Of a DNA stretch of 64,000 nt, positions 2,189 to 49,047 are shown in pieces. Origin of the DNA: Candidatus Hinthialibacter antarcticus. Its GTDB lineage: Bacteria > Hinthialibacterota > Hinthialibacteria > Hinthialibacterales > Hinthialibacteraceae. The notes beneath the pieces were generated by a model. It searched no databases. It saw only the letters and a program-made list of their open reading frames with translations, and was not told where the DNA came from. The DNA lies in the NCBI GenBank assembly GCA_030765645.1, contig JAVCCE010000008.1, positions 1 through 64,000 on the forward strand. The letters run 5' to 3'. Made by a program: the position numbers and the translations under genes. The first letter of the stretch is position 1; every line of letters starts with the position of its first letter.

Positions 2189-2400
2189 ATCCGGTAAATA
2201 AGGACCGACATTGATGGATGAGCATGATTTTGATTCCGAAAATATATCCCGACCTATCAATAAATGACAAACCAATTCAGGCATGGATGCAACTCTGTGA
2301 GCGCCTGTGCACAAGGGCCTGAAAGCCCGCACTGAAGCGAGCAGAGTTGCGCCCATGCCAAATGCAGCAAAATAAAAAAAGTATCCAAGTTACGGAAGCA
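2189..2400 (+). repeat. HR1 repeat copy B inside a MITE-like unit
   Basis: The 80-base hairpin core (2280-2359) has end arms GGCATGG/CCATGCC. It is flanked on both sides by sequence shared with copy C. The left end, ATCCGGTAA followed by ACATTGATGGATG, and the right end, TATCCAAGTTACGGA, are partly inverted relative to each other (TCCGgTAA and TTACGGA). This gives a unit of about 210 bp without coding potential, as in miniature inverted-repeat elements. Confidence 0.7.
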
Positions 2401-2445
2401 CGTTTTTTTGTGATAGGTTGGCTGCAACTCCGTATAGATACATGA

Positions 2446-2571
2446 ACCAAAGGCGAAAAATTTGATTTGAACATCTTTCTTCCCGGTCATAGCGAACCAA
2501 TATTCACGCTGGAACAAGTGGAGGCGCCCAACAAAAACGTCATCATCCAACTGCCGGAAATACCGGAATAG
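2446..2571 (+). pseudogene. C-terminal gene remnant
   Basis: A 41-codon open stretch ends at TAG 2569 and reads like a genuine protein C-terminus (GEKFDLNIFLPGHSEP, then TLEQVEAPNKNVIIQLPEIP). It is preceded by an in-frame TGA and by the MITE-like repeat, and has no start codon. A strong intrinsic terminator follows 25 bases later, as expected for the end of a former gene. The family is not recognised. The inference is that a gene was truncated, possibly by the repeat insertion. Confidence 0.35.
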
Positions 2572-2591
2572 ATTGCGAATCATATTTGATG

Positions 2592-2631
2592 AAAAAGCCG
2601 AACCCGTTTAACGATTCGGTTCGGCTTTTTT
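2592..2631 (+). terminator. Intrinsic terminator
   Basis: GCCGAACC (2597-2604) pairs perfectly with GGTTCGGC (2618-2625) and is followed by six T. An A-run precedes the stem, so it could also work on the opposite strand. It follows the gene remnant and precedes the FG-GAP gene. Confidence 0.85.
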
Positions 2632-2727
2632 CGTTTTCCTCGTCCCCCACTAGACGCGCCCCGCTACAATATTCAATACTAATATCTCGATTTGATTTTT
2701 ATTTTTATTCGACTTTTGGAGAGCGTC

Positions 2728-3921
2728 ATGAAACAAATCCTCATACCCATCTGCCTGATTTTCGCCTTGACCACATTTGCAGCCGACAAACCACCCGTTT
2801 CATTTGAAGTCCACTCCATCGACGATAACGCCGAAATGTGGTGGGCGCGCGCATTCGCTGATATTAACAATGACGGGCTGCTCGACATCGCTTTACAGAA
2901 CAACAACGCACGCGGCGGGTGGCTGGGTTGGCTCGAAGCCACTGACGGCGGCAAACAATGGCAGCGTCATATCATCGCAGAAACCGCGCCCAACGACGGA
3001 ACGTTCGCCAGCGGCGACCTTGAAGCAGGCGACATCGACGGCGACGGCGACATTGATATTATCGGCGTCGCGCACCCCGGCGAGTGGGATGAAGGCAGCG
3101 CCCCATCAACAGTCTATTGGTATGAAAACCCTTCCTGGAAAGCGCACAAAATCGGCGGCGCCCCCGCCTTCATCAAAGATTTAAACCTGATCGACTTTAA
3201 TCAAGACGGCAAACTCGATCTCTGCTCGACTGTGTTCGTCACCAACACGCTGACAGTGTTTCGCCAGGATTCTCCTGATAAATGGACGACGGTGCAGAAA
3301 ATTAAAGTCGCAAATCTGCATGAAGGCATGGACGCAGGCGACATCGACGGAGACGGCGACAACGACATTGCCGCCGACGGCTATTGGCTCGAAAGCCCCG
3401 GCGGCAATCTCGAAGCCGAGTGGACGATCCACGAGATCAATCCGCGTTGGCACACCCAAGACGGCGATTGGTCGCGCAACGCCACCAAAAATTTCTGCCG
3501 TGACATCGACGGCGACGGACGCGCCGAAGTGTTTATCTCCCATTCAGAACGCAGCGGTTATCCGGTCGCCTATTACAGTGCGAAAGACCCCAAAAAAGGC
3601 CCATGGACCGAACACGTTTTAGTCAAAGATTTGTCATCCGCACATACCTTACAGATTTTCGATTTTGACAACGACGGCGACCAAGACGTGCTGACGGGAA
3701 TCAACATGAACCGCGCCAAAGCCCTCGAACTGACTTCGTTCCCTGTTTATTTGTTGATTAACCAAGGCGACAACAAAACTTGGACCAAACAGACGCTAAC
3801 AAATGAAGGAATCTATAACGGACAAGCAGGCGACATCGACGGCGACGGCGATTATGACATCGTGCGCCTTCAAACCCACGATGGAACAAAACTAGAAGTG
3901 TGGATGAACCAAACCAAATAA
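2728..3921 (+). CDS. Secreted FG-GAP/VCBS-repeat protein
   Basis: This is a 397-residue exported protein. The first ~18 residues (MKQILIPICLIFALTTFA) form a signal peptide. The body carries at least seven calcium-loop motifs of the FG-GAP/VCBS type: DINNDGLLDIA, DIDGDGDIDI, DFNQDGKLDL, DIDGDGDNDIA, DIDGDGRAEVF, DFDNDGDQDV and DIDGDGDYDIV. This is the pattern of an integrin-alpha-like beta-propeller. The start ATG has GGAG 6 bases upstream; longer in-frame starts would spoil the signal peptide. No catalytic domain is visible, so a structural, adhesive or ligand-binding role outside the cytoplasm is inferred. It appears monocistronic. Confidence 0.85.
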   Translation: MKQILIPICLIFALTTFAADKPPVSFEVHSIDDNAEMWWARAFADINNDGLLDIALQNNNARGGWLGWLEATDGGKQWQRHIIAETAPNDGTFASGDLEAGDIDGDGDIDIIGVAHPGEWDEGSAPSTVYWYENPSWKAHKIGGAPAFIKDLNLIDFNQDGKLDLCSTVFVTNTLTVFRQDSPDKWTTVQKIKVANLHEGMDAGDIDGDGDNDIAADGYWLESPGGNLEAEWTIHEINPRWHTQDGDWSRNATKNFCRDIDGDGRAEVFISHSERSGYPVAYYSAKDPKKGPWTEHVLVKDLSSAHTLQIFDFDNDGDQDVLTGINMNRAKALELTSFPVYLLINQGDNKTWTKQTLTNEGIYNGQAGDIDGDGDYDIVRLQTHDGTKLEVWMNQTK

Positions 3922-3931
3922 AAAATGGGGC

Positions 3932-4159
3932 ATCCGGTAAGTGAGTACTTACATTGATGGATGGCCATAATTTTGATTCAGAAACAGGCTCCGGCATTTC
4001 AAAAATTGATAAACCAACCAGGCTTGGGTGGAACTCTGGGAGCGCCTGTGCATAAGGGCCTGAAAACCCGCACTGAAGCGAGCAGAGTTGTACCCATGCC
4101 ACATGCAGCAAAATCCCAATTCAATGTATAAAAAAGCATCCAATTAACGGAAGAACCAT
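3932..4159 (+). repeat. HR1 repeat copy C inside a MITE-like unit
   Basis: The 80-base core (4021-4100) has arms GGCTTGGGT/ACCCATGCC. Left flank (ATCCGGTAA, ACATTGATGGATG, ATTTTGATTC) and right flank (ATGCAGCAAAAT, ATCCAATTAACGGA) match copy B. The ends ATCCGGTAA and TTAACGGA are imperfect inverted repeats. The unit starts 10 bases after the FG-GAP stop codon and ends just before the promoter-like element of the candidate RNA at 4202. Confidence 0.75.
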
Positions 4160-4163
4160 AAAT

Positions 4164-4194
4164 CTGTTTTTTAACCGTGTAATCCTGCTACAAT
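4164..4194 (+). promoter_or_regulatory. Candidate promoter for the structured RNA
   Basis: A -10-like TACAAT (4189-4194) lies 7 bases before the G at 4202 where the predicted RNA stem begins, the correct distance for a start site. The -35 side is weak (CTGTTT at 4164, spacing 19). The 12-mer GCTACAATATTC also occurs at 2663, ahead of the FG-GAP gene. Confidence 0.4.
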
Positions 4195-4201
4195 ATTCTC
4201 T

Positions 4202-4297
4202 GGCGGTTGATCGAGGAACGTTTCGGACGTTAGGCGGACGGCCTGAGATGCACTATCTTGGGTTGCACCATCCCCTTCGATGACCGCCTTTCATTTT
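4202..4297 (+). ncRNA. Candidate structured RNA, class unknown
   Basis: A closing stem GGCGGT (4202-4207)/ACCGCC (4283-4288) extends through ATCGA (4210-4214)/TCGAT (4277-4281). Inside are four small hairpins: AACGT/ACGTT (4217-4231), AGGC/GCCT (4232-4244), AGAT/ATCT (4246-4258) and GGG/CCC (4260-4274). The closing stem is followed by TTTCATTTT, so it could terminate itself. A -10-like box sits 7 bases upstream. The layout is a multi-arm junction. It lacks the T-loop sequence of tRNA and the core motifs of riboswitches I know. It may be a free small RNA or a leader of the kinase gene that follows about 290 bases later. Confidence 0.4.
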
Positions 4298-4582
4298 ACC
4301 TGATGAGATTTTCCACTTCAAATTTACCCATCACTCCATAGTTTCAGGCCTACAGTCTACTTGTTTTTTACTGCAATAACATAGTGTTTCGTTGTTGCAG
4401 AATTTTACATTCTTTTATCAAAATAAGATTTTTCTATTTTTTTACATTATGAGAATTTTCAACCTGCTAATTACTGCTGCATAACCTACTGAAAAAGCAA
4501 TGTTTCTTTGTTGAAAGTTTGTTTCTGGTGTTGGTATGTTCATTGCTATGATTCTGGTTATATATCAAAGTGGGTTCCAGCG
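4298..4582. other. AT-rich gap upstream of the kinase gene
   Basis: This gap of about 285 bases has no convincing coding frame. A hairpin CTGCAA...TGTTGCAG lies around 4371-4400. A long in-frame extension of the kinase back to TTG 4508 exists but has no ribosome-binding site and reads as non-protein-like. Confidence 0.4.
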
Positions 4583-6208
4583 ATGAAACCAGCAAGCGCC
4601 GATACAAGCAAAAGCCGCGAAGAGTTACTTAGCGAAAATCATGCTCTTCGCCAGCGTATTCATTTGCTCGAATCACAACCTCCGCAACCCAAACTTCATA
4701 TCGTCCATCCAGAAAAAAGCATTGAACCGGTCATGCAGACCATGTCGGAAAATTTCCCCGGTGTTCTCTACCAATGGTATGAACGCGCGAATGGGGAGTG
4801 CGGTTATTACTTCGTTAGTCCTCATTGCTTTGATTATTATGGAGTTACACCTGAAGAACTGATTGAAGATTGGCGCCGTTTGCCCATTCATCCTGACGAT
4901 ATGCTTGGTTGGGCGGAAAGCATGAAAGAGGCGTCTGAAAATAAATCCGACTGGTCATTTGAAGGTCGTTTTATTCTCAAAGACGGCATTATCCGCTGGT
5001 GGAGAGGCGTGTCAAAGCCTATTCAAGTGAGCGAAAATGAAATTGTGTACAGCGGTGTTTTGATTGACATCACTGACCAGAAAATTATAGAAGAGCAATT
5101 ACGCCACAAAGAAGAGCGCCTTGAGTTGGTGTTGAAAAGCGCCGAGTTGGGGATGTGGGATTGGAGCGTTCAATCAGATCAATCTATCTTCAATGACCAA
5201 TGGGCGTCAATTTTGGGATATGAGTTACATGAACTGACCAACAATGTAAGTGAATGGTCTTCGCGGGTGCATCCTGACGATTTACCCGAAATCCATCGGC
5301 GTTTGTCTATCAATCACCAACCGTGGTCGAATGAATTGTATGAAGCGGAATACCGGATGAAGAGCAAAGATGGCCAATGGGTCTGGGTCTTTGCCCGAGG
5401 CCGGGTGACCGAATGGGGAACGAACGGCGAGCCATTACGCATGATTGGCGTCACTCAAGATGTGACTGCGCGAAAGAAACTCGAAACGCTGCTGCGAAAT
5501 GCGAAAGAAGACGCAGAGGCGGCAGATTGCGCGAAGAGTGAATTTTTAGCCGCGATGAGCCACGAATTGCGTACGCCGCTGAATTCAATCATCGGATTTA
5601 CGAACCTGTTGCTCAAACGGCCTCAATGCGGTCGGAATGAGCATTGTTCAGAGTTCCTGGAACGAATCTCAGAAAATGGCGTTCACCTTTTAGGATTAAT
5701 CAACGATGTTCTTGATCTCTCGAAAATTCAAACGGGAAAAGCCCGAACGGATATTCGTGTTGTGAATATTGTTGAACTTCTTAAAAATATCGCTCAGCAA
5801 TTTGACTATCAGTTTCAAAAGAAAAATATTGAATTTTTTCTCGATGTTCCAAATGAACCTGTGTATTTAAAGACGGACGAAATGAAGTTAATACAAATTG
5901 TGCAGAACCTGGTAAGCAATGCGTTTAAGTTTACGAATAATGGGCGGGTCAGTATTATGCTTTCTACCTCGCCTTTGTCGGGACACCCCATTCAATTGGA
6001 AGTCCGCGATACCGGCGTCGGAATCCCTGCGGGCCGCCTCGAGACAATCTTCACTGCATTTCAGCAGGGCGAAACCGGCACGGCAAGAAAATATAATGGT
6101 ACAGGATTGGGGTTGGCAATCTGCCAGTCATTGTCAAACCTGTTGGGATATAAGTTAGAAATTGAGAGCCAAGTCGGATGCGGTTCAATGTTTCGGATAA
6201 TTTTTTGA
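4583..6208 (+). CDS. Cytoplasmic PAS-PAS hybrid-type sensor histidine kinase
   Basis: This is a 541-residue kinase without membrane segments, so a soluble signal is likely. A short coiled coil (about 15-35) precedes two PAS_3-type domains (about 55-175 and 180-310), each closed by a PAC-like stretch (GVLIDITDQ, GVTQDVTARKK). The HisKA dimerisation helix carries the phospho-accepting H327 in MSHELRTPLNSIIGF. The ATP domain shows the N box (LVSNAFKFTNNG), G1 (DTGVGIP), F region (FQQGE) and G2 (GTGLGLAI). There is no receiver domain of its own; the lone receiver gene at 6665 is the obvious partner. ATG 4583 is chosen as the first credible start, although its ribosome-binding site is poor. Confidence 0.85.
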   Translation: MKPASADTSKSREELLSENHALRQRIHLLESQPPQPKLHIVHPEKSIEPVMQTMSENFPGVLYQWYERANGECGYYFVSPHCFDYYGVTPEELIEDWRRLPIHPDDMLGWAESMKEASENKSDWSFEGRFILKDGIIRWWRGVSKPIQVSENEIVYSGVLIDITDQKIIEEQLRHKEERLELVLKSAELGMWDWSVQSDQSIFNDQWASILGYELHELTNNVSEWSSRVHPDDLPEIHRRLSINHQPWSNELYEAEYRMKSKDGQWVWVFARGRVTEWGTNGEPLRMIGVTQDVTARKKLETLLRNAKEDAEAADCAKSEFLAAMSHELRTPLNSIIGFTNLLLKRPQCGRNEHCSEFLERISENGVHLLGLINDVLDLSKIQTGKARTDIRVVNIVELLKNIAQQFDYQFQKKNIEFFLDVPNEPVYLKTDEMKLIQIVQNLVSNAFKFTNNGRVSIMLSTSPLSGHPIQLEVRDTGVGIPAGRLETIFTAFQQGETGTARKYNGTGLGLAICQSLSNLLGYKLEIESQVGCGSMFRIIF

Positions 6209-6664
6209 TTTGTTGTTTTGCCTAGAGAGGTCGTCGTGTTTTTCGTATAGAGGTTTGGGTTATGTATAGGTTTCCTGTCTCATTGGTGACAGGAGACAAT
6301 CGAACTTGGATGGAACGTGGGACTTCTAAGACGGGCAATTCACTTTGGATTCCAAACGGGTTGCCTGTTTGGGAGAGTTGACTGGACGGGAATATCTTTA
6401 ACTGCTTCATCCATCTCATTTTTTTGCCTTCCTCAATTTAAAACGCAATGCAAATGTTATGTAGAACGACGCTTGTTTCTTTTCAAACTATATCATTTAT
6501 ACAGAACAAGTGACAACTCTTTTTTAGTCGTTTTTTTAGCATTTCACGGCGTATAAATAAAATTACCTGTATAATTATGAAATGATTGAAACCTAATTCA
6601 TTCGTGTTGCTTTTATAGCACAATTTTGATTAATCGTATTTGAATTTAACCCTAGCGGTCATAA
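6209..6664. other. Intergenic gap between kinase and receiver genes
   Basis: These 456 bases, AT-rich toward the right, contain a small perfect hairpin CCTGTC/GACAGG (6274-6293) without a T-run. I see no credible gene on either strand and no clear promoter. Confidence 0.45.
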
Positions 6665-7081
6665 GTGATAAAGGACGAGCCTCCTTTGATTGATTCTTTC
6701 TTGCCGACTGAACTAAAAACGATTCTGTTTGTTGAAGATGAAATCGTTATCCGAGAAACTGTTTGTGAGGTATTAGGTGAAGCCGGACATACAATGCTGG
6801 CTGCGAAAGACGGACTGGCTGCTTGTGAACTCTTTGACAAGAACATAGATGAAGTTGACTTAGTCATTCTTGATTTATCTCTACCGAAACGCTCTGGCTT
6901 AGAGGTTATGGATTACATCCGCTCAAAAAGGTCAGATATGAAGATATTGGTTTGCAGCGGTTATGTTGACAATAAGAGAGTGGAAAAACTGGTACGTTCA
7001 GGCGCCGTCTCTTTTTTATCAAAACCGTATCAGTTTGAGCAAGTCGCCGCTGCGATTCGCGACTGTTTCAAAATGGAATAA
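6665..7081 (+). CDS. Single-domain response regulator (CheY-like receiver)
   Basis: This is a receiver domain only, 138 residues from GTG 6665. The acidic pocket E24-D25-E26 (ILFVEDE), phospho-acceptor D70 (VILDLSLPKRSG), switch S98 (VCSGY) and conserved K120 (LSKPY) are all present. No output domain follows, so it should signal by protein contact or take part in a phosphorelay. The upstream PAS kinase, also lacking a receiver, is its probable partner, although 456 bases separate them. Start choice is uncertain: TTG 6686 has AAGGA 10 bases upstream and would trim seven residues that are not part of the fold. Confidence 0.85.
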   Translation: MIKDEPPLIDSFLPTELKTILFVEDEIVIRETVCEVLGEAGHTMLAAKDGLAACELFDKNIDEVDLVILDLSLPKRSGLEVMDYIRSKRSDMKILVCSGYVDNKRVEKLVRSGAVSFLSKPYQFEQVAAAIRDCFKME

Positions 7082-7183
7082 GATTCGATTTGACTGAAGG
7101 CCCGTTTCTCTGGCATTGTCTTGACCCTATGTTACGCGGCGAGTACTCTCCAATGCAGCCGCGACTGCGGTGAAGGATCTGGA

Positions 7184-8203
7184 ATGACAACCGAACCACA
7201 AACCGTAAGCGCTCCAAGCGATGTCGATGCAATCAAGCGCATCCATGACAGCAAAGAGCGCATTTCAAATGAAATTGCGAAAGAAATCGTTGGGCAAAAG
7301 GCCGTCATTGAAGAATTGTTGATCTGTCTTTTCGCAGGGGGGCATGCGCTGTTAGTTGGCGTCCCCGGCTTGGCCAAGACGACTTTGATCCGTACGTTTT
7401 CTGATATTCTCGATTTAGATTTTAGGCGCATTCAATTTACGCCCGATCTTATGCCCTCTGATATTACGGGTACTGAGGTCATGCAGGAAGACCGCTCGAC
7501 GGGAGAGCGGGCGTTTCGTTTTATCAAAGGCCCGCTTTTTGCCAATATCATATTGGCGGATGAGATCAACCGAACGCCTCCCAAGACGCAAGCCGCCCTG
7601 CTTGAGGCGATGCAAGAAAAGCGCGTGACGGTCGGCGGCGTTGATTACCCGATTGAACCGCCGTTTTTTGTTCTAGCCACTCAGAACCCCATCGAGCAAG
7701 AGGGTACCTATCCATTGCCCGAAGCGCAGTTAGACCGCTTTATGTTCCAGATCAATATTGACTATCCAAGCACTGACGAGGAAATTGAAATCGTCAAGAA
7801 CACAACATCCGCTTACCATGCTGAACCTCAAAAAGTGTTGAGCGGCGAAGATATTCTACAAATTCAAGATTTAGTGCGTCGCGCCCCCGCCTCGGATGAT
7901 GTGGTCCGCTATGCCGTCGAAATCGTCAAAGCGACCCGTCCCCGTCAACAAGGTCAGGATTCTGTTGAAACGGTTGACCGTTACATTTCATGGGGAGCGG
8001 GGCCTCGCGCTTCACAATATCTGATTTTGGCAGGCAAGGTGAGGGCCATTCTCGCCGGGCGTTATAGCGTCGCGCACGAAGACGTACGGGCTGTCGCCGA
8101 CCCAACATTGCGGCATCGCATCATGACGAATTATCGCGCCGAGGCTGACCGCGTCAGCATACATGACATCATCAAGGAAATTATTGACGGCGTGAAGCAC
8201 TAA
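7184..8203 (+). CDS. MoxR-family AAA+ ATPase
   Basis: This 339-residue ATPase matches the MoxR/RavA group, chaperone-like ATPases that help assemble or activate protein complexes. Walker A is GVPGLAKT (59-66), Walker B is ILADEINR, sensor 1 is LATQNPIEQEGTYPLPEAQL, and the C-terminal lid contains the GAGPRASQYL segment typical of MoxR. The start ATG has AAGGA 6 bases upstream. MoxR genes usually sit beside DUF58 and VWA-domain genes; those are absent here, so the client is not evident. The gene ends in a double hairpin that probably stops transcription before the T2SS operon. Confidence 0.9.
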   Translation: MTTEPQTVSAPSDVDAIKRIHDSKERISNEIAKEIVGQKAVIEELLICLFAGGHALLVGVPGLAKTTLIRTFSDILDLDFRRIQFTPDLMPSDITGTEVMQEDRSTGERAFRFIKGPLFANIILADEINRTPPKTQAALLEAMQEKRVTVGGVDYPIEPPFFVLATQNPIEQEGTYPLPEAQLDRFMFQINIDYPSTDEEIEIVKNTTSAYHAEPQKVLSGEDILQIQDLVRRAPASDDVVRYAVEIVKATRPRQQGQDSVETVDRYISWGAGPRASQYLILAGKVRAILAGRYSVAHEDVRAVADPTLRHRIMTNYRAEADRVSIHDIIKEIIDGVKH

Positions 8204-8219
8204 AATGTAATTGTGAACT

Positions 8220-8276
8220 GGAGCGCCCCTGTCTACAGGGGCGTCTTTATGATGCGCGTGTGGACACGCGCGCTCC
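8220..8276 (+). terminator. Double-hairpin terminator-like element
   Basis: The first hairpin GCCCCTGT/ACAGGGGC (8225-8242) is followed by GTCTTTAT. The second is GCGCGTGT/ACACGCGC (8254-8271). Outer arms GGAGCGC (8220-8226) and GCGCTCC (8270-8276) can close both into a three-way junction. It lies 17 bases after the moxR stop. It may end moxR transcription, but its compact symmetric design also resembles a dispersed hairpin repeat. Confidence 0.55.
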
Positions 8277-8607
8277 GTATTTTATAGATACTACTTTGGC
8301 GAAATCAACTTTTTGCTTTCCACAGGTCTTTTTTCAAACCTCTTAGGCTCACATGTCACTCTCATTCCCGTCGCGGTCAACCGTGAAAACCCGGGTTCGC
8401 CTGGGATTTTCACGGTTCCTATAGGTTATATTCTATTTGATATAATATATAATCCATCAAGGCTTCATTGCCTAAGTGGTTTGTTATTAGTGTGTTAAGT
8501 GGTTTTCTTGTGAGTTGTTTTGCTGCCGCTGAATCTTGGCAGCCTGTTTGCATATAAGAATCACTGTAGAAAATAGTTGAAGCGTGTTTGAGGAGGCTTT
8601 TCCTGAG
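8277..8607. other. Leader region of the T2SS operon
   Basis: This gap of about 330 bases has no gene. It contains the long UUCG-capped hairpin (8381-8415), then an AT-rich stretch with TATAAT at 8441-8446 (no good -35), and the AGGAGG (8591-8596) used by gspE. It probably holds the operon promoter and a 5' leader. Confidence 0.5.
8381..8415 (+). promoter_or_regulatory. Long UUCG-capped hairpin in the T2SS leader
   Basis: CCGTGAAAA (8381-8389) pairs perfectly with TTTTCACGG (8407-8415). The inner CCCGGG/CCTGGG stem, with one G-T pair, is capped by TTCG; one A is bulged. No T-run follows immediately, so a processing or regulatory role is as likely as termination. Confidence 0.55.
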
Positions 8608-10314: not shown

Positions 10315-10342
10315 GAGCATTTCATAAAAGGACGTAAACAGC

Positions 10343-11554: not shown

Positions 11555-11620
11555 ACAAAAGTCAAGCCGGATACCGGCATAGGGAAACATAACTCATATT
11601 TGTATCTCGGAGGAATCGGA

Positions 11621-34844: not shown

Positions 34845-34983
34845 GAAGTTCTCCATCAATCAGCCCAAAATAGTATTCGTTAGTATACCTTCGGAGCGAA
34901 GTTTGGTTTATCTCTATCACGTAATTTTTATACAAGCCGAATACATGTGAGAATCACTTTCGATCAATTTAGACCGGCTTAAC

Positions 34984-35067
34984 TTGGGGCGGGTGCAACT
35001 CTGTGAGCGCCTGTGCAAAAGGGCCTGAAAGCTCGCACCGAAGCGAAGAGAGTTATACCCGCCCCAA
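34984..35067 (+). repeat. HR1 hairpin repeat, copy D (core only)
   Basis: Arms TTGGGGCGGGT (34984-34994) and ACCCGCCCCAA (35057-35067) pair perfectly over 11 bp. The inner stem GGGC/GCTC and the CTGAAA loop are kept. The MITE-like flanks of copies B and C are absent. It lies between the manC-like stop and the phosphomannomutase start. Confidence 0.75.
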
Positions 35068-35100
35068 ACGCAATCGTACTATTAAGTATGGTCCGTAAAA

Positions 35101-36216
35101 TTACACTTGCGGCGCGTCGCGGTGTTTGAGTTCTGCGACCACGCGGCGCACGTCCTGTGCACGGTCTTTGCGGCAAACCAGGACGCCGTCTTCGGTTGCA
35201 ACCACAATGACGTTCTCAAGCCCGACGACGCCAACCGCCATTTGCTCGGCGCCCGCTTGATTGATGACGGTCACGTTCTTGCAATCAATCAAAACCGGAT
35301 CGCCGCTGTTGAGTCCTTCTTCCTCGACGCCCAAGGCTTGCGCCAGGGATGACCAGGTACCGATGTCGTTCCAGGAGAACTTCGCAGGAACCATATAAAC
35401 GCTCTGCGCATGTTCCAGTAATGCTTTATCAATAGATTGAGAGGGCATGCGTTCAAAGGCTTCGTTAAGCGCCTTCGCGTCTGGCGGCGTTTGTTGCAAG
35501 GCGTCCCGCATTTCTTCAATAGCGCGGGCGTAGGCAGGCGCGACGTTTTCGAGTTCCTCAATGAATGTCGATAGTTTCCAAAAAAAGAGGCCGCTGTTCC
35601 AGAGAAAGCGATTGGATTGGATGTATTCAACTGCTGTGTTGTGATCGGGTTTTTCACGGAATGAATGCACCGAATACACAGGCATGTCGTCGATCACGGC
35701 GTCTGGCTGTTCGCGGTCGCTGATTTCGATGTAACCGAACCCGGTTTCGGCACGAACCGGCTCAATGCCCAGTACCGCGATTGCGTCATGTTCGACTGCC
35801 GCTTGCAGCGCGGTGTGAACGGTTTGGTGTAAGGCGTCATCGTCGCCAATATAAATGTCTGCGCTAATGATGGCGATGCGGTGTTTCAGCGCTTCATCGC
35901 CCCAGCGGGCGAGCAGGTGCGCGGCGGCGAACGCAAGGCAGCCAGCGGTATTGCGCGGCGTGGGTTCTGAAAGAATGTTGGCTGTCGGAAAGTCAGGAAG
36001 TTGCGCCTGGATGGGTTCTGCAAGCGATTCGTTCGTCGCGATAAACAGGTGTTCGGGCCCAGACAGCGGTAGCCATTGCCGGACGCAGCGTTCTAACATA
36101 CTTTCGCTGTCATCCACCAAACGCAGTAATTGCTTAGGCCGACGGCGCCGACTTAACGGCCAAAACCGCTCGCCGGAACCGCCAGCCATTATGATGGTAA
36201 CAAGTGGCGCTTGCAT
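35101..36216 (-). CDS. manC: Mannose-1-phosphate guanylyltransferase
   Basis: This is a 371-residue nucleotidyltransferase that makes GDP-mannose from GTP and mannose-1-phosphate. The signature IIMAGGSGERFWPLSRRRRPKQ opens the protein (sugar-nucleotide pyrophosphorylase motif and catalytic Lys). SEPTPRNTAGCLAFAA and FREKPDHNTAVEYI fit the GMP family, and WNSGLFFWKLSTF is the usual sugar-binding stretch. There is no C-terminal isomerase domain, so it is the monofunctional short form. GGGAG precedes the ATG. It is functionally paired with the mutase downstream. Confidence 0.9.
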   Translation of the reverse strand: MQAPLVTIIMAGGSGERFWPLSRRRRPKQLLRLVDDSESMLERCVRQWLPLSGPEHLFIATNESLAEPIQAQLPDFPTANILSEPTPRNTAGCLAFAAAHLLARWGDEALKHRIAIISADIYIGDDDALHQTVHTALQAAVEHDAIAVLGIEPVRAETGFGYIEISDREQPDAVIDDMPVYSVHSFREKPDHNTAVEYIQSNRFLWNSGLFFWKLSTFIEELENVAPAYARAIEEMRDALQQTPPDAKALNEAFERMPSQSIDKALLEHAQSVYMVPAKFSWNDIGTWSSLAQALGVEEEGLNSGDPVLIDCKNVTVINQAGAEQMAVGVVGLENVIVVATEDGVLVCRKDRAQDVRRVVAELKHRDAPQV

Positions 36217-39254: not shown

Positions 39255-39306
39255 AACTACAGGATTGTGCAAAATTGGTTTATGATTATCTCTGGAGAAA
39301 AAACGA

Positions 39307-39575: not shown

Positions 39576-39594
39576 GTTGAATTCAGGAGGGCTT

Positions 39595-40790: not shown

Positions 40791-40875
40791 ATAAAAGAGA
40801 CCGGAGGCCTTTTGCGTTGGCTCGCGTGTGCGTCTACACTGCTATCAATCATTGTAAAGGCTAGGGGAAACGCAC

Positions 40876-41877
40876 ATGGATTCATTGTTTGACGACGCGC
40901 CGCAAAAGGCGTACGTTGATGAACTCAACGTCGGAGATTTGGTCGAGTCGGCCTTTGTCGTACATCGCCTCAATCTGCGGGAGTACGATAAGGGCAAATT
41001 TTTACAAGTTCGGCTCGGCGACCGCACTGGTAAAGTCAACGCGGTTTTATGGAACAATGCCGACAGCGTCAACGAGCGCCTCGAAGAAGGGCAGATTGTC
41101 CATATCGAGGGCAAGGTCAATAGTTATCAGGGTGAATTACAAATCACCTTAGACCGCATCGAAGCGCTGCAAGACCTTTCAGAAGTTGACCCTGGCGATT
41201 TTTTGCCGAAGTCGCCGTATGAACTGGACGAAATGACCGCTGAATTTGACCAGCGTATTGAAGAAATCCAGGATACGGATTTTCGCGAGTTGTTGGAATC
41301 GTTTCGAAACGATGAGGCCGTTTGGAAAAAATTCTCAACTGCCCCCGGCGCAAAGTTATGGCATCACCCCTACATTCACGGCTTGCTGGAACACACGCTT
41401 TCCGTGATTCGGATGTGTCGGGCGGCGGCGGACAATTACCCAAATATCAATCGCGATTTGTTGATAACGGGCGCGGTGTTTCATGATTCAGGCAAGATGG
41501 ATGAGTTTGAATATGATTTTCGCATCGACTATAGCACCCAAGGGCGTTTGCTGACGCACGTCTATATGAGCACAAAACTGGCTGAGCAGTTGATTGAACG
41601 GCTGGAAGCGTTCCCCGAAGAAAAACGCCGCCTTTTGTTGCACATTATCCTATCTCACCACGGCGAAACGGAGCGTTCTCCCGTTTTGCCAATGACCTTG
41701 GAAGCCTGCCTGCTGCATCATGTTGAAAATATGGACGCGCAAATTGCTGCGTTTCAACGGGAAATGGACAAAGTCGGCAACGAGAGCAAACCTTGGACCG
41801 GGTATGTAAACTTGATTGGACGTTATTTATACCGTGGAGAGCCTCAGGCGCCGGATGATGAAGAAGCGGCATCCTAA
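40876..41877 (+). CDS. yhaM: YhaM-type 3'-5' exoribonuclease
   Basis: This is a 333-residue protein with an N-terminal OB fold (about 12-95, VRLGDRTGKVNAVLW and GQIVHIEGKVNSYQGELQI) and a C-terminal HD domain (about 150-310). Metal-binding positions are seen in GLLEHTLSVI, VFHDSGKMDEF and ILSHHGETERSP. This pairing is that of YhaM/CBF1-type nucleases, which degrade RNA and single-stranded DNA from the 3' end. AGGGGA precedes the ATG. Confidence 0.87.
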   Translation: MDSLFDDAPQKAYVDELNVGDLVESAFVVHRLNLREYDKGKFLQVRLGDRTGKVNAVLWNNADSVNERLEEGQIVHIEGKVNSYQGELQITLDRIEALQDLSEVDPGDFLPKSPYELDEMTAEFDQRIEEIQDTDFRELLESFRNDEAVWKKFSTAPGAKLWHHPYIHGLLEHTLSVIRMCRAAADNYPNINRDLLITGAVFHDSGKMDEFEYDFRIDYSTQGRLLTHVYMSTKLAEQLIERLEAFPEEKRRLLLHIILSHHGETERSPVLPMTLEACLLHHVENMDAQIAAFQREMDKVGNESKPWTGYVNLIGRYLYRGEPQAPDDEEAAS

Positions 41878-41957
41878 CGGGGTGGCGTGACCGTGCTTGA
41901 AAGCGCCCGTTTATGAGTACAATGAGTCAAAAGGATAATCAAGGATAATCGTTGTTC

Positions 41958-44900
41958 ATGTCAAATAAATTACGCAGTTCTCAATTGCTCAGCCAGTTGT
42001 ATTGGCGCTACCAGCGCCGCCGCCTGATCGGCTTGCTTTCGCTATGCCTTCTCTGTTTGATGCTGGGCGCTCAGGGCATGTTGTTCACGGGTATGGCGCT
42101 ACGCTTAGAACAATTCAGCCTAAACGTGCTCTTTACGGTCTTGTTATTGGGCGGCGCTGCCGTCATTGGGCGATATATATACGACTGGTTGGCGGACGGA
42201 GTGTTTGCGCGCCGATTTTTTCATCAATGGGAATCGCACCACCAGGATGTCGCGCACCGCACCGACTTGGTTGTGTATAGCGAACGTCAACCGGATGAAA
42301 TCCAACGCTTGGGCTATTCGCAAGAACTGATTCACGCTGAAGACGAAATATTGATTGAGCGATTGCAGGCAATAGCCCAACACAGCGCGCCTACTCCGCT
42401 GCGGTTGCCGCTGGCGTTGCTCGCGGCGGTGGTTATTTCATCGGGATTGATGTGGCTGGTCAAAGGAGACGCGTTGCAAGCGGAGTCGCGCCGCATCGCG
42501 CAGGCGCTGGTCGTGTATGATGCGCCGGACGACAGTCTATCGTTGCAAGTTCCAACCCAGGTGACGGTAAAACGCGGCGATCCGCTCACGTTGTCGGCGA
42601 CCATTCAGGGAGACCCGAAAGGGCAATTCGCGACGCTGCATCGGGAATTTCGATCCGGCTGGGAGAGCGTAAGCGTCGCGCCGCAAGACGGGCGGGCCGA
42701 GTTTTCGTTGCCCAGCCTCAATCGTGAAATGGTCTACTACATTTCGCTGGGCGATGCATTGTCCAACCGGGGGACGGCGACGCCGCTCGATCCGCCTGCA
42801 TTGGCGAAGGGGCGCATTGTCATTCAGCCGCCAGCCTATACCAACTTGCCGCAAGAGACCATCAACCATTGGCGGGCGTTCTCGGCGCCGCGTGGCAGCC
42901 ATGTGACGTTTGCGGGCATTGCCAGCGCCAGTTTGACCGCTGCGACGGCGCAGTGGTTGGGTAATCCATATCCATTGACGCTAGGCGGCGGCGAGTTTGC
43001 GATTGAGATCGAACAGATTCATCAGAACAGTGAATTTACCGTCTCGATGCAAGATGAAAACGGCATGATCGGCCAGTCGCAGTCAATTCAAATTGAAATG
43101 GTTGAAGACGCGACGCCGCAGGTTGAGATCATGGCGCCGCCGGAGAATATAGACATCCCCGGCGGGATGGCGATTGGCGTTTCGGCCCATATTCAAGATG
43201 ATTACGGCGCCCGTATTATGCTGCTGCATTCGCAACTGAACTATGACGAATCGACCAACAAGTCTGAACTGGTGTGGAAATACACCGAAGAACAAGCGGC
43301 GGACATAAACAGCGGTAAAGATTTTTATGTGAATTTTGAATGGAACATCGCGCCGTTTGAAATGTATCCCGGCGATGAATTGACGTTCTATCTTGAAGCG
43401 TTCGACGAAGACCCGTTTCATGGTCCGAAGGCGGCGCGTTCAAAAACACATACGGTGCGGTATCCCTCGTTATTGGATTTGGTGGATGAACTGAACCAGG
43501 AAGAAGATACCCACATTGAAGATTTGAATGAGATTCTCGCTGAACAACGCGATATCCGCAACAATCTAGACGATACCTTGGAGCGCATTGCGGAAAAGTC
43601 TGAAATGCAGGGGCAGGAGGAGCAGGGCGAAGAACAATTCTGGATGGAAAAACAAGAACTCGAAACCATCAAAGACCGCCAGGAAGAACTAATCGAAGAA
43701 GCCAAACGCATTGAAGAAGAACTCGAACAGTATCAAGAGTCAGCTAACGAAGAGCTCAGTTCTGAGGAAAAAGAAGAGCAGGGCTTTACGCCGGATACCT
43801 TAGAAAAACTGAGCCGCGTTCAAGAATTGATGAAGGAGATGGTCGACCAGGAAAGCCAGCAACTGATGGAGCAAATGGAATCGGCTATCGAACAACTTTC
43901 GCAAAATATGGATGCTGAGCAGATGCAGGAACTCGATTTCAGCGTCCAGAATTTTGAAGAGCAGCTCGACCGGACGCTGTCGATGCTCGAATCGACCTTT
44001 CAGTTCCGTCAGTTAGAAGGCCTTCGTCAAACGGCGGAGGAACTGGCCCAGCGCCAAGACCATCTGATGCGCGAAACGGAGCAATTACAGCAGGACGTTT
44101 CGAGTCTCGAATCAGAAATCCAGGAGATGGAAGAACAAGCGCAGCAATTGGCGCAAGAGCAAGAACAACAAGGCGAAAATTCGCAAGCAGAGAATTCGCA
44201 ATCGGGTGAACAGAACCAAGGCGAGCAAACCCCGTCGGGCGAGAATAGCGAATCTTCCGAGCAATCGGAGGGCGAGCAAGGCGACGCCGCCTCAGAAGAA
44301 CAGCAACGCCTGCAAGAGGAAATCAATAAGAAAAAAGAAGAACTAAGCGCGAAAGAAAACCTGTTGGCGCAGCGTCAAGAGCGCTTGCAAGAAGACGCTG
44401 AAGCGATGATGGAACAGATGGAGAAGATGAAGGAAGAGATGAGCGAAAGCAACCCCATGCTCGCTCAAAAGATGGAACAAATGCTGGAGCAGCTGCAAGA
44501 AAATAAAACCATGCAGCAAATGAAAAAAGCCGCCCAGCAATTACAGTCGGGCCAGCCGCAAATGGCGCAGCAGAACCAGAAAAAAGCGCTGGAATCTCTG
44601 CAACAAATGTCAGAGCAAATGAACGACCAAATGGCCAATATGGGCATGCAAAATATGGAAGAAGATTCCAACCAGATTAAGCGCCTGGTTGATCGCGGAT
44701 TGTTTCTTTCGGATGAGATGGAAGGCCTGACCGAGTCCGTCATGGGGCAGAGCGAGGCCTTGGCTGCGTTGCGAATCGCGAACGCCTACTTACGCGAAAT
44801 CAAGCGCGTACGCACCGTATGGAAAGGCGTCGCAGCGCAGAACCCGTATCTCAATCGACGTTCGGGCCAATTGCTGCAACAGAGCGAACAACGCCTCTAT

Positions 44901-45584
44901 GAAGCCGTGGAGGTAGGGCAGGGCGTCAAATGGCTGGGGCTGCATGAAGCCCGCCAGTCGTTGATTGCGCTCAATCAGGCGTTGCGTCAGATGATGCAAG
45001 ACAATCAGGACATGATGCAGCAAATGCAGCAGCAACAAAGCAGTATGCAGGATTTCCAACAGCAGATGCAACAGATGATGCAGCAACAGCAAAGCCTCAA
45101 CCAGATGATGCAACAGCTGAAGCAACAAGGCGAACAAGGCGAAAAGATGGCCGAACAACTCAAGCGCATGGCGCAGCAACAATCGCGTATTCGCAAAGAG
45201 ATCGAAAAAATGATGCAGCAAAACCGCCACGCCCGCCAATTGAAAAACCGGCTGCAGGGCATCTATGACGAGATGCGCGAGGTCGAAAAACTGCTGGAAG
45301 CCGGCGAGAGCGGCGACGAAGTCGATGAACGCCAACAACGCATCATGACGCGGATGCTCGAAGCGGGCACCATGCAGGAAGAAGACGAATACGGACGCGA
45401 GCGCCGCGAAGAAACGCCTGATGCGGTCGAAACTGAATCGCCGGAAGGCGAAGTAAAAACCGATTGGAAAGATTCAATACGCCGAAGCCTGGAGCAACCG
45501 CCGCTTGACAATATCCCGCCGCAGTATCGCGAGGCGATCAAGAAGCATTACATCCGGTTGTCTGAAGAAGCGCTGCCCGGTTAA
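41958..45584 (+). CDS. Giant DUF4175-like membrane coiled-coil protein
   Basis: This is a 1,208-residue protein. Three membrane helices lie near the N-terminus (about 24-44, 52-72 and 145-165). An extracytoplasmic region of about 330 residues follows with beta-sandwich-like stretches (VTVKRGDPLTLSATIQGD; IVIQPPAYTNLPQETI). From about 500 to 1150 it is a very long coiled coil extremely rich in Glu, Gln and Met (many QQMQQMMQQQQ-like runs). The layout fits the DUF4175 group of uncharacterised envelope proteins. ATG 41958 is preferred to the TTG six bases before. Codon use stays like its neighbours, so transfer is not indicated. Confidence 0.65.
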   Translation: MSNKLRSSQLLSQLYWRYQRRRLIGLLSLCLLCLMLGAQGMLFTGMALRLEQFSLNVLFTVLLLGGAAVIGRYIYDWLADGVFARRFFHQWESHHQDVAHRTDLVVYSERQPDEIQRLGYSQELIHAEDEILIERLQAIAQHSAPTPLRLPLALLAAVVISSGLMWLVKGDALQAESRRIAQALVVYDAPDDSLSLQVPTQVTVKRGDPLTLSATIQGDPKGQFATLHREFRSGWESVSVAPQDGRAEFSLPSLNREMVYYISLGDALSNRGTATPLDPPALAKGRIVIQPPAYTNLPQETINHWRAFSAPRGSHVTFAGIASASLTAATAQWLGNPYPLTLGGGEFAIEIEQIHQNSEFTVSMQDENGMIGQSQSIQIEMVEDATPQVEIMAPPENIDIPGGMAIGVSAHIQDDYGARIMLLHSQLNYDESTNKSELVWKYTEEQAADINSGKDFYVNFEWNIAPFEMYPGDELTFYLEAFDEDPFHGPKAARSKTHTVRYPSLLDLVDELNQEEDTHIEDLNEILAEQRDIRNNLDDTLERIAEKSEMQGQEEQGEEQFWMEKQELETIKDRQEELIEEAKRIEEELEQYQESANEELSSEEKEEQGFTPDTLEKLSRVQELMKEMVDQESQQLMEQMESAIEQLSQNMDAEQMQELDFSVQNFEEQLDRTLSMLESTFQFRQLEGLRQTAEELAQRQDHLMRETEQLQQDVSSLESEIQEMEEQAQQLAQEQEQQGENSQAENSQSGEQNQGEQTPSGENSESSEQSEGEQGDAASEEQQRLQEEINKKKEELSAKENLLAQRQERLQEDAEAMMEQMEKMKEEMSESNPMLAQKMEQMLEQLQENKTMQQMKKAAQQLQSGQPQMAQQNQKKALESLQQMSEQMNDQMANMGMQNMEEDSNQIKRLVDRGLFLSDEMEGLTESVMGQSEALAALRIANAYLREIKRVRTVWKGVAAQNPYLNRRSGQLLQQSEQRLYEAVEVGQGVKWLGLHEARQSLIALNQALRQMMQDNQDMMQQMQQQQSSMQDFQQQMQQMMQQQQSLNQMMQQLKQQGEQGEKMAEQLKRMAQQQSRIRKEIEKMMQQNRHARQLKNRLQGIYDEMREVEKLLEAGESGDEVDERQQRIMTRMLEAGTMQEEDEYGRERREETPDAVETESPEGEVKTDWKDSIRRSLEQPPLDNIPPQYREAIKKHYIRLSEEALPG

Positions 45585-45621
45585 GCGCGCCTTTTGCAAT
45601 ATTGTCGAAATATGATATAAC

Positions 45622-45656
45622 AGGCTGGGCTTCGCGCCCGGCCTGATTTATTTTTG
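45622..45656 (+). terminator. Intrinsic terminator after the DUF4175-like gene
   Basis: CAGGCTGGGC (45622-45631) pairs with GCCCGGCCTG (45637-45646) over 10 bp with one wobble, and TTTATTTTT follows. A promoter-like pair TTGCAA (45595) and TATAAC (45617), 16 bases apart, overlaps its left side, so it may also form the leader of the next transcript. Confidence 0.6.
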
Positions 45657-45667
45657 GGAGGATAGAA

Positions 45668-46747
45668 ATGCAACGAAATAACAAGACGTGGACATTGCGC
45701 TGCTTGGCCTTATTTATTCTGTGTGGAACAATGGCAATAACAACAATGAATGTAGGAGCAGGCGCTGTGAAAATTGAGAAAACGACTTTCGAAGGCTGGA
45801 ATGATTGTTACCGGATGTCAAACGGTGAAGTTGAATTAATCGCAGTGGCGGACATCGGCCCGCGTATTCTGCGCGTCGGGTTTGTCGGCGGGCAGAATTT
45901 CTTTAGCGTAAGTGAAGGCAGTAAGGGAAAAACTGGCGGCAACGAATGGAACGGCTACGGCGGACACCGCTTCTGGATCGCTCCTGAAATGGATTACACC
46001 TATCACCCTGATAACTTCCCCGTCAAAGCGGAGGTTCAAGGCAATTCGATCACGTTTACTTCATCGCCGGAATTGGTTGACTTCAGCAACCGCGCAGCAA
46101 TGGACAATGACGAGTTGTATGAAAAAGTGAATGACCCGGCGTTTAAGTCTAAGTTGACCGTACAAAAGGTTATGAAAGTCACTATGTCAGAAGAAGGCGA
46201 AGTGACTGTCGATCATACCGCGACCAATGTTGGTACTCAAACCTTGGATATTTCGCCCTGGGTATTGACCGTCATGAGTAAAGAAGGTCTTGCAATTATT
46301 CCCAATGAACCTTATGCGCCCCACGGCCCCGGCCATTTTCTTCCTGAACGGCAATTGGTGTTGTGGAGTTATACCTTCATGAATGATTACCGCATCCAGT
46401 TCGGCGACCGCTATTTCACTGTGCAGCAGGACCCGAAGGCAACCAAGCCGTTTAAACTGGGCTTCTCCGATACGCAAGGTTGGGCGGGTTATTCATTAAA
46501 TGGTGAATTGTTCGTCAAATATATGGACCGCATTCCAGGGAAATCTTATCCTGACATGGGAAGTTCAGTTGAATTGTTTACCAACAACGCCATCATGGAA
46601 ATCGAGTCGCTCGGCCCGGAGTTTAACTTGAAACCGGGCGAAGGTATGTCGCACCAGGAGCGCTGGCGCTTGTTCAAAACTGGCCCGATCGAACGAAACG
46701 ATGATGCGATTGATGCCAAACTCAAGCCATTGGGCTTAGTGGAGTAA
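45668..46747 (+). CDS. Secreted DUF4380-like protein
   Basis: This is a 359-residue protein with an N-terminal signal (about 10-32) and a body resembling DUF4380, a galactose-mutarotase-like beta-sandwich group. Features are VELIAVADIGPRILRVGF near the start, GGHRFWIAPEMDYTYHPDN in the middle, and VDHTATNVGTQTLDISPWVL later. The His and Glu of GHRFWIAPE may be active-site residues, as in aldose-1-epimerase folds. GGGAGG precedes the ATG. It is followed by its own terminator and then the GH172-like gene, suggesting a carbohydrate-processing pair. Confidence 0.65.
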   Translation: MQRNNKTWTLRCLALFILCGTMAITTMNVGAGAVKIEKTTFEGWNDCYRMSNGEVELIAVADIGPRILRVGFVGGQNFFSVSEGSKGKTGGNEWNGYGGHRFWIAPEMDYTYHPDNFPVKAEVQGNSITFTSSPELVDFSNRAAMDNDELYEKVNDPAFKSKLTVQKVMKVTMSEEGEVTVDHTATNVGTQTLDISPWVLTVMSKEGLAIIPNEPYAPHGPGHFLPERQLVLWSYTFMNDYRIQFGDRYFTVQQDPKATKPFKLGFSDTQGWAGYSLNGELFVKYMDRIPGKSYPDMGSSVELFTNNAIMEIESLGPEFNLKPGEGMSHQERWRLFKTGPIERNDDAIDAKLKPLGLVE

Positions 46748-46765
46748 TTCCAATTCGATGAAGCG

Positions 46766-46797
46766 AAAAAGGGGGCGGTGATCCGTCCCCTTTTTAT
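46766..46797 (+). terminator. Intrinsic terminator
   Basis: GGGGGCGG (46771-46778) pairs with CCGTCCCC (46783-46790) around a TGAT loop, with one G-T pair. The stem is extended by A/T pairs and followed by TTTTTATT. It lies 19 bases after the DUF4380-like stop. Confidence 0.8.
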
Positions 46798-46809
46798 TAG
46801 TGAGGAGAA

Positions 46810-48888
46810 ATGAAAATGAACATTCTACGCGCTTGTATGGCATTGTGCGTATTAACGCTGCTCCTTCCGTCTCCGCAATGCGAGACGATTACCTTCGGCT
46901 CGCTGGTTGATGAGATGACCGACATGCACCGCTTGGCGAAGTTCCCTGAACCTGTGTATAAGACCGTCCAGTTTTCATCGTATGACCGGCGCAGCAAGAC
47001 GCCGGGCGGGCCGGACTGGTATGCAAATTCCGACGGCTTTGGCAGCGAACCCATTCCCAATTTTGAAGAAGTATTGAAAGAGCCGGGTGCGGACAACATT
47101 GGTGAATATCTCGTTTGCGACGTAAAAGGCCCCGGCGCGATTGTGCGAACCTGGACGGCGGCGATCAAAGGCGATGTTCGCGTGTATTTAGACGGCTCGA
47201 AAGATGCGGTGTATGAAGGCTCCGCACAGCAGTTCTTTCAATATACGGCGCAGCATTTTTTAGCGGATAGCGGCATTGATTCAAAACTGATCGACCGCAC
47301 GTTTCAACAAAGAAATGCGTGTTACTTTCCGATTCCATTTGCGCGGCGCTGTCGCATTGAATGGCGCGGCAATTTGAAGGAACTACATTTTTATGAAGTG
47401 CAGATTCGCTTGTATGAGCCACACGCCGAAGTCGCGACGTTTGAGCCAAGCGACGTAAAAGTCTTTCAGGAAAAGATTGAATCCGTTGCAAAAATTCTGG
47501 GCGATATCGACGGCGAATGGCAGTACAAATCCGAAAAAGAAGCGCTGCCTTTGAATGCTATGTTGAAAGCGGGTGAAACGGTTTCTTCGATTAAGCATAA
47601 AGGCTCAGGCGCGATTGAACGGCTGACGCTTCAACTCAAAGCCGATGATCTCAACGCGGCGCTGCGCCAGACGGTGATGAAAATTTCATTCGACGGCTTC
47701 CAGACTGAACAGATCATTTCGCCCGTCGGTGATTTTTTTGGCGCGGCGCCGGGCGTGAATCCCTATACTTCGCTTCCATTTACCGTGACGCCAGAGGGCG
47801 AAATGACCTGCCGCTATGTGATGCCGTTTCGCGAGAGCGTGAATATCACCTTTGAAAACCGGGGCGAACAGACGGTTGAAATTATTGGTTCCGTTTTGCC
47901 GTGCGCGTTTGAAGTCGAGCCGGAGCGCTTCCAGCATTTTCGGGCGCGTTGGCGCGTCGAACATGACCTGATTAGCAAACCGGAACGCGACTTGCCGTTT
48001 TTGCTCGCCAATGGAAAAGGCGTTTACGTTGGTACCACCAGTTATTTATGGAACCCGAATTTGATCCCTACGCCGTATGGCAACTGGTGGGGCGAAGGCG
48101 ACGAAAAAATATTTGTCGATGAGGATGAATTTCCTACGACATTCGGTACTGGCTCAGAAGATTACTACAACTACGCCTGGTCGGCGCCGGATATATTCTT
48201 GTTTCCCTATTGCGGACAACCTCTCAACGATGGTCCCGGCAATCGCGGGTTCGTGACCAATTTTCGCTGGCATGTGATAGATGCGCTGCCGTTTAACGAA
48301 CAGATTGCCTTCTATATGGAACTCTTCACTCATCAGTTGACGCCCAAATTAACCTATGCGCGTATCAGTTACCACTATGGCTCGCCGGGAATCTACGACG
48401 ATGTATCGCGTATCAGCATGGACGATTTGCGTAAGCCCGTTCGCGATCAGGTTTGGAGCCCTGTAGCGGAATTTGGTGCTCAGAATTCGACGTTTTATGA
48501 AACCGAAGCCGTTGCGACAAAGAGCGCAACAAGCCGTATGGACAATGACAATCTGTTTTCAAACGGCTCATGTTGGGTCTGGCAGCCAAAAGCAATCGGA
48601 GAAACGGTTGAGTTAAAACTGTCGTTACAAGAAGCGGGCAAGTACGGCTTGCGTATGACCTGCGCCCACACAGAAAATTCGGGGACGTTTTCTATTCTAT
48701 TTAACGGAGAAGACATCGACGAAATCGTTGAATTGAATGTTGCGCACCGGAAGTATTTGAGAAACCGCTTTCTGCCGGAGTTTGAATTAAAAGCCGGAGA
48801 GCAAACGCTGGTTTTAAAATATGAGGGTGCGCCCGACGGCGCCGCTGGCGAGATCGGCGTCGATTTTGTTTGGCTGCAAAAGCGATAG
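46810..48888 (+). CDS. Secreted GH172 (DUF2961) family protein
   Basis: This is a 692-residue exported protein: signal peptide about 1-25 (ACMALCVLTLLLPSPQC), then the DUF2961 domain now called glycoside hydrolase family 172. Family marks are FSSYDRRSKTPGG, VCDVKGPGAIVRTWTA, and the conserved TFGTGSEDYYNYAWSAP with its active-site glutamate. The last ~130 residues form a beta-sandwich (VELKLSLQEAGKYGLRM), as often added to this family. Characterised members cleave or form fructofuranosides; the substrate here is unknown. GAGGAG precedes the ATG. An HR1 hairpin lies after the stop. Confidence 0.82.
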   Translation: MKMNILRACMALCVLTLLLPSPQCETITFGSLVDEMTDMHRLAKFPEPVYKTVQFSSYDRRSKTPGGPDWYANSDGFGSEPIPNFEEVLKEPGADNIGEYLVCDVKGPGAIVRTWTAAIKGDVRVYLDGSKDAVYEGSAQQFFQYTAQHFLADSGIDSKLIDRTFQQRNACYFPIPFARRCRIEWRGNLKELHFYEVQIRLYEPHAEVATFEPSDVKVFQEKIESVAKILGDIDGEWQYKSEKEALPLNAMLKAGETVSSIKHKGSGAIERLTLQLKADDLNAALRQTVMKISFDGFQTEQIISPVGDFFGAAPGVNPYTSLPFTVTPEGEMTCRYVMPFRESVNITFENRGEQTVEIIGSVLPCAFEVEPERFQHFRARWRVEHDLISKPERDLPFLLANGKGVYVGTTSYLWNPNLIPTPYGNWWGEGDEKIFVDEDEFPTTFGTGSEDYYNYAWSAPDIFLFPYCGQPLNDGPGNRGFVTNFRWHVIDALPFNEQIAFYMELFTHQLTPKLTYARISYHYGSPGIYDDVSRISMDDLRKPVRDQVWSPVAEFGAQNSTFYETEAVATKSATSRMDNDNLFSNGSCWVWQPKAIGETVELKLSLQEAGKYGLRMTCAHTENSGTFSILFNGEDIDEIVELNVAHRKYLRNRFLPEFELKAGEQTLVLKYEGAPDGAAGEIGVDFVWLQKR

Positions 48889-48911
48889 AAGTTTTTTACG
48901 TACTGGAGTAG

Positions 48912-48931
48912 GGGCGCAGCGTGCCGCGCCC
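48912..48931 (+). repeat. Short GC hairpin next to HR1 copy E
   Basis: GGGCGC (48912-48917) mirrors GCGCCC (48926-48931) with an 8-base loop. It is 24 bases after the GH172 stop and has no T-run. It may help end transcription together with the adjacent HR1 copy. Confidence 0.4.
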
Positions 48932-48959
48932 GTGATAACACCGATTAGAAATCTTTAAT

Positions 48960-49047
48960 TCAAGGCGTGGGTGCAACTCTGTGAGCGCCTGTGCATAAAG
49001 GCCTGAAAGCCTGCACTGAAGCGAAGAGAGATGTACCCACGCCTTGA
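48960..49047 (+). repeat. HR1 hairpin repeat, copy E (core only)
   Basis: Arms TCAAGGCGTGGGT (48960-48972) and ACCCACGCCTTGA (49035-49047) pair perfectly over 13 bp. The inner stem is AGGC/GCCT where other copies have GGGC/GCCC, a two-sided compensatory change. The copy lies between the convergent GH172 and mtnA stops. Confidence 0.8.

Follow-up and report, generated by a model that had tools for sequence, protein, structure and literature searches.

HR1, a hairpin of ~80 bases, is a mixture of two classes within a single genome: stand-alone copies and copies borne by MITEs. In the stand-alone class selection maintains outer-stem pairing, and copies lie preferentially, and in one orientation, just past the stop codons of genes, a slot that for two of these genes is held by a canonical terminator in relatives. 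We lean towards reading HR1 as a lineage-specific, REP/ERIC-like set of hairpins at mRNA 3' ends that terminate transcription or protect the transcript end, with the minus strand as the functional one, and that MITEs have captured. If gene-end copies do end or protect transcripts, HR1 is a repeat family that, in an uncultured phylum, equips many unrelated genes with their 3' ends. Thin evidence underlies most labels of interspersed bacterial palindromes as selfish or functional; one hairpin in two contexts of one genome, its pairing kept in one and decaying in the other, provides a natural internal control for distinguishing selection from mutation.

Copy number and distribution

The window (the whole stretch of DNA analysed, 64,000 nucleotides, C8:1-64000) belongs to a genome of 5.15 Mb in 78 contigs. 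An earlier, sequence-only reading of the window had described HR1 as a dispersed repeat with an almost invariant inner sequence, and this core is indeed present far beyond chance: the 5.15 Mb contain 175 exact matches to an 18-base core pattern, against 0 for the reversed control. The same 18 bases have no match in 40 other genomes. The covariance-model search that the reading had proposed was run with a model built from 20 copies (R1) and a second one built from stand-alone copies (R2). Each gives at least 150 matches in the hairpin's own genome, where there are probably about 200 copies; neither R1 (E <= 0.001) nor R2 (E <= 0.1) has a match in 13 genomes of the same phylum, a search that scored the first 150 candidates per relative and that diverged relatives might escape. 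Many contigs terminate within the HR1 repeat, as expected where a repeat breaks assembly. About 1.49 Mb of the genome was read, yielding 150 non-redundant matches, a few of them truncated or marginal.

Beyond this genome, a strict core pattern found nothing in 85,000 species genomes (its own excluded), and the core pattern found nothing in plasmids. Among viral contigs the core pattern matched once, in a partial, MITE-borne copy located at the end of a contig, and a stricter version matched none. One IMG/VR contig (L172:1-150) starts inside an HR1-bearing MITE, beside cellular and phage-like genes, and is probably a prophage edge from a close relative of the bacterium. No Rfam family reached its gathering score in the window, and the copy at 48960 drew only chance-level microRNA matches.

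A family that is both lineage-specific and dispersed has spread somehow. It could itself be a mobile, REP-like palindrome, spreading as single-stranded DNA, with insertion in a fixed orientation into or beside terminators; its position at gene ends would then be a target preference, and its conserved core a transposase recognition site. We regard this as possible but doubtful. Such an element would produce what is seen, at least 150 copies dispersed through one genome and none in 13 relatives, and further evidence on both sides is given below.

HR1 copies in the window

The sequences described in the sequence-only reading are present where it placed them, including the outer arms TTGGGGCGGGT/ACCCGCCCCAA at 34984 and TCAAGGCGTGGGT/ACCCACGCCTTGA at 48960 and, in what it called copy E, the inner AGGC/GCCT pair. 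All full copies lie between ORFs, as it had said, and all are recovered by R1. Its count of four complete copies and a partial one at position 1 needs a qualification, as the partial copy comprises just the terminal 21 nt of a single arm, the contig starting inside the repeat.

The copies at 1, 2280 and 4021 are not independent hairpins, each being part of a longer element that they have in common, a MITE; those at 34984 and 48960 are stand-alone. The window begins at base 1 of contig C8, and bases 1-21 are the 3' arm of an HR1 hairpin in the right part of an ISL3-type MITE of type B (1..108, + strand), which is cut by the contig start and whose right end, ..CCGGAAGAACC, is common to the MITE family. 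A type A ISL3-type MITE at 2184..2402 (+), with TIR-like ends and shared flanks, carries the hairpin at 2279..2360 (+; R1 105.2 bits), and T runs at both of its ends would fit a target duplication. A second type A element at 3927..4157 (+), with the shared left flank and right end CGGAAGAACC, carries the hairpin at 4020..4101 (+; R1 97.1 bits), whose arm changes are unpaired.

The two stand-alone copies are given here as gene-sense elements on the minus strand. One (34982..35068, -; R1 93.2 bits) begins 35 nt past the stop of a mannose-1-phosphate guanylyltransferase-like gene (35101..36216, -; NTP_transferase and ManC beta-helix domains by Pfam), which lies sense-upstream of it. The other (48960..49047, -; R1 102.2 bits, R2 106.5 bits) begins 31 nt past the stop of an MtnA-like gene of the IF-2B family (49075..50178, -; Pfam PF01008), likewise sense-upstream, and is convergent with 46810-48888 (+). 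It folds to -52.4 kcal/mol, compared to -23.8 for shuffled sequences (z = -8.8). The earlier statement that several copies sit just after stop codons holds for these two, the relevant genes being on the minus strand with stops at 35101 and 49075.

The arms had also been said to change on both sides together. This is so at 34984 and 48960; at 2280 there is an A-C mismatch, and at 4021 GGCTTGG stands opposite CCATGCC, a T-T mismatch, with GGAACTCTGG replacing GCAACTCTGT. Paired changes within the window therefore rest on two copies.

Two classes of copies

About 60% of the 150 matches read have common flanks, and most of these lie within MITEs. Types A and B are mostly 220-263 bp long with ends GGTTCATCCGGTAA...TTACGGAAGAACC (GGTTC..GAACC) and are bordered by 8-bp AT-rich target duplications, perfect in 8 of 15 elements and with one mismatch in two more. 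Fragments of ISL3 transposases (PF01610) at contig ends lie directly inside the same left end, which identifies the type A/B carrier as an ISL3-type MITE. A smaller group, type C, has GAAGCCATCTCAAAA ends beside TA and by inspection appears IS630/Tc1-like.

The remaining copies (roughly 50-58) have neither shared flanks nor TIRs, and no target duplication was seen when the flanks of their stems were inspected by eye; most carry the signature CTCTGTGAGCG...GAAGCGAAGAGAG. They are the more diverse class, with a mean identity of 0.82 versus 0.88 for MITE-borne copies, which suits an older age. We infer that the hairpin was captured by MITEs rather than the reverse. Two MITE families, one ISL3-type with 8-bp duplications and one TA-flanked and IS630/Tc1-like, would have picked it up and amplified it as a decaying passenger. 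The absence of target duplications also agrees with a mobile palindrome. Against mobility, nearest stand-alone copies are only ~74-94% alike (a few reach 96-97%), pairs at one locus excepted, which gives little indication of recent jumps.

Stand-alone hairpins are frequently found in same-orientation pairs 135-184 bp apart that have one flank in common and the other not (C1:147378/147513, C1:154459/154643, C11:166666/166845, C75:46915/47086). In addition, several HR1 copies (L102:13395-13617, L013, L045:11087) are cut at one point (GAAGC) and fused to a CAATGTCATTGACTT repeat, a pattern that recombination with this repeat, or its insertion, at a fixed site of the hairpin would give.

Pairing in the outer stem

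Covariation was tested statistically, as the sequence-only reading had suggested, on an alignment of 43 stand-alone copies (A4). It contains 137 cells changed on both sides with the pair kept, compared to 46 in shuffled alignments, and has a covariation score of 0.292 versus 0.113; none of 500 shuffles reached the observed value of either measure. Structures slid along the same alignment give at most 51 pair-keeping cells. A tree inferred from these data requires at least 59 joint changes, in contrast to 8-19 for slid partners.

The strongest argument comes from the contrast between classes. Relative to their class consensus, stand-alone arms show 90 paired and 74 one-sided changes, and MITE-borne arms 4 paired and 88 one-sided, although the one-sided load is alike in both (about 9-10% of cells; 9.3% for MITEs). 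Outer-stem pairing is thus under selection in the stand-alone class. The paired changes might instead be a product of mutation, with template switching at quasi-palindromes copying one arm onto the other, which we consider improbable: given the similar one-sided load, a general palindrome-correcting mutational process at work in both classes should have produced many paired changes in MITE hairpins as well. The mismatched internal loops of the core, moreover, are preserved and not corrected.

What such fold-back copying would give is a perfect, locus-specific extension of the stem into unique flanks, and this is observed: the stem continues past the consensus by a mean of 2.6 bp, versus 0.74 with flanks shuffled between loci. 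Any of three processes could account for it: further selection, fold-back copying, and insertion into a palindrome, the last of which would suit a mobile palindrome; yet GGCnnGGG is common to the arms, which are therefore not simply derived from the target.

The earlier conclusion that HR1 is a selected hairpin and not a decaying repeat consequently stands for the stand-alone class and fails for the MITE-borne class, to which three of the five copies it cited belong and which has no gene-end preference. Arm differences that break pairing, which it had named as evidence against itself, characterize the MITE-borne class, not the stand-alone one.

Position relative to genes

A simple longest-ORF rule was used to define genes. 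By this rule, 33 of 53 stand-alone copies begin no more than 60 nt past the stop of a minus-strand gene, the strand opposite to the orientation used in the sequence-only reading; the figure for MITE copies is 8 of 87 (Fisher 6e-11), and the expectation for copies placed at random in intergenic gaps is 12.5%. Nine stand-alone copies lie within 60 nt after a plus-strand stop, and some after no stop. The start of the hairpin is 0-60 nt past the stop in most cases (median about 29), and strict intrinsic terminators of the same genome are mostly 20-55 nt past it (median about 27). None of the HR1-linked genes has a strict terminator in this slot; four have one beyond 120 nt.

The linked genes are unrelated to each other. 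They include Ser-, Gly-, Val- and Phe-tRNA synthetases, NhaA, PRA isomerase, cobalamin adenosyltransferase, the NTP transferase/ManC and IF-2B/MtnA-like genes, ABC permeases and others, a diversity that fits a general 3'-end role. In the closest relative (G004) the MtnA ortholog, 76% identical, has a canonical terminator, AAAAAAGGCGGCACGAAGCCGCCTTTTTTTTT, 24 nt after its stop, in the place of HR1, and GlyRS orthologs have one 26 nt past the stop in G004 and 46 nt past it in a second relative (G002). Across the readable part of G004, a terminator occupies the slot for 2 of 3 HR1-linked orthologs versus 7 of 23 controls, a comparison that is suggestive only.

The 3'-end reading and mobility may also be combined: an orientation-locked mobile palindrome would enter or replace terminators, the host would then come to depend on it, and its copies would become constrained in pairing, turning a selfish repeat into mRNA 3' ends throughout the genome that are recognized by way of the fixed core. 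We hold this sequence of events to be unlikely.

Y1/RAYT-type genes and other candidates

Three Y1/RAYT-type genes are present in the genome, and all have other repeats beside them. A 183-aa Y1 transposase gene on C42 (L152:1317-2070) has GTAGGGTGGGTTCTTAACCCACC repeats on both sides and forms with them a classic GTAG REP-RAYT pair. Another, of 185 aa, on C74 (L151:1232-2256) lies between copies of a GGTGGCAAGGGCAAG repeat that is also scattered genome-wide. The third, on C1 (L078:13520-14320; C1:146520-147320), is frameshifted and flanked on both sides by an 80-base palindrome, GGGGAGGGCGAACCTCCTGGTGAGCC...GGCTCGTCGGGAG...CGCCCTCCCC. The layout of this palindrome, with outer arms and an inner GAGC/GC stem, is like that of HR1.

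An HR1 pair ~200 nt beyond the broken gene on C1 is a further point in favor of a mobile palindrome, but it lies on one side only; as HR1 does not flank any of the three genes on both sides, we rejected a RAYT as its mobilizer.

Three other candidates were considered and set aside. Integron attC sites, suggested by position and orientation after stops, have RYYYAAC/GTTRRRY ends, which by inspection HR1 lacks, and HR1 is dispersed, not arrayed. For a kink-turn or SECIS-like core, the plus strand does have G-A pairs, but the bulge length and geometry do not fit, also by inspection. No reverse transcriptase domain turned up to support a connection with group II introns or retroelements.

Strand and mechanism

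We propose that stand-alone HR1, which fills the slot of an intrinsic terminator 0-60 nt after the stop codon, serves ordinary mRNAs as their 3'-end hairpin. Read in gene sense (the reverse complement of the strand shown in the sequence-only reading), it would help to end transcription or, alternatively, would form a stable 3' end that blocks exonucleases, as REP and ERIC hairpins do. The near-invariant, asymmetric core is probably either a mark recognized by a protein or a trace of recent common origin.

In 9 of 30 gene-end copies the sense-strand stem is followed by at least 5 T in 8 nt. T content is higher on the sense side than on the plus side (p = 0.03) and not above that farther out (p = 0.30). 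With so weak a T tract, gene-end HR1 copies are not canonical U-tract terminators.

The minus strand is our presumed functional strand; G-U evidence mildly favors the other. The plus strand, antisense to the gene, is more stably folded in 40 of 50 copies, and G-T is preferred over A-C by 35:1 at two stem columns, compared to about 12:15 in the rest of the consensus arm columns; this is a hint that the plus strand is the one that folds. A plus-strand folding bias would also agree with a mobile palindrome. The stability bias is equally strong in MITE copies and may have been inherited from an ancestor.

The same G-U preference and higher plus-strand stability would be expected of a plus-strand small RNA or antisense RNA targeting the 3' ends of neighboring genes. 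We think this highly improbable, as the same core is found at very different genes and the stability bias is identical in decaying MITE copies.

Comparison with known systems

REPs are high-copy intergenic palindromes with stems of 5-13 bp, found mostly between unidirectional and convergent genes; their families have alternative, complementary stem residues, and some are restricted to one species (PMC3733652). HR1 resembles these GTAG/CGTC elements in being high-copy and intergenic, between unidirectional or convergent genes, and differs in its length (~80 nt), in having at least 17 bp in the outer stem, and in its long, asymmetric core. GTAG occurs within 12 nt of 2 of 52 hairpin ends, and CGTC of 4 of 52; the absence of a tag also argues against a mobile, REP-like palindrome. 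By the features tested, HR1 is REP-like in habit but is not a REP.

ERIC and many other stem-loop families have also been described (PMC2267715). HR1 has no evident sequence relation to ERIC/IRU, belongs to a different phylum and exists as stand-alone and MITE-borne classes.

Compared to canonical intrinsic terminators, HR1 occupies the same post-stop slot in the sense direction, and some copies have an A-rich/T-rich stem base. It differs in its invariant 40-nt core with internal loops and in usually having no strong U-tract directly after the stem.

The bcr1 repeats and similar structured repeats of the Bacillus cereus group have MITE-like, mobile features. HR1 shares with bcr1 an interspersed, intergenic distribution and a predicted stem-loop, but its stand-alone copies have neither TIRs nor target duplications and are orientation-locked at gene ends. 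The carriers, in contrast, match ISL3-family MITEs in their TIRs, 8-bp AT-rich target duplications and full-element ends, a group to which stand-alone HR1 does not belong.

What is new in HR1 is a longer hairpin whose asymmetric core is invariant and which is locked in one orientation in the terminator slot, its constrained stand-alone copies existing side by side with decaying transposon passengers.
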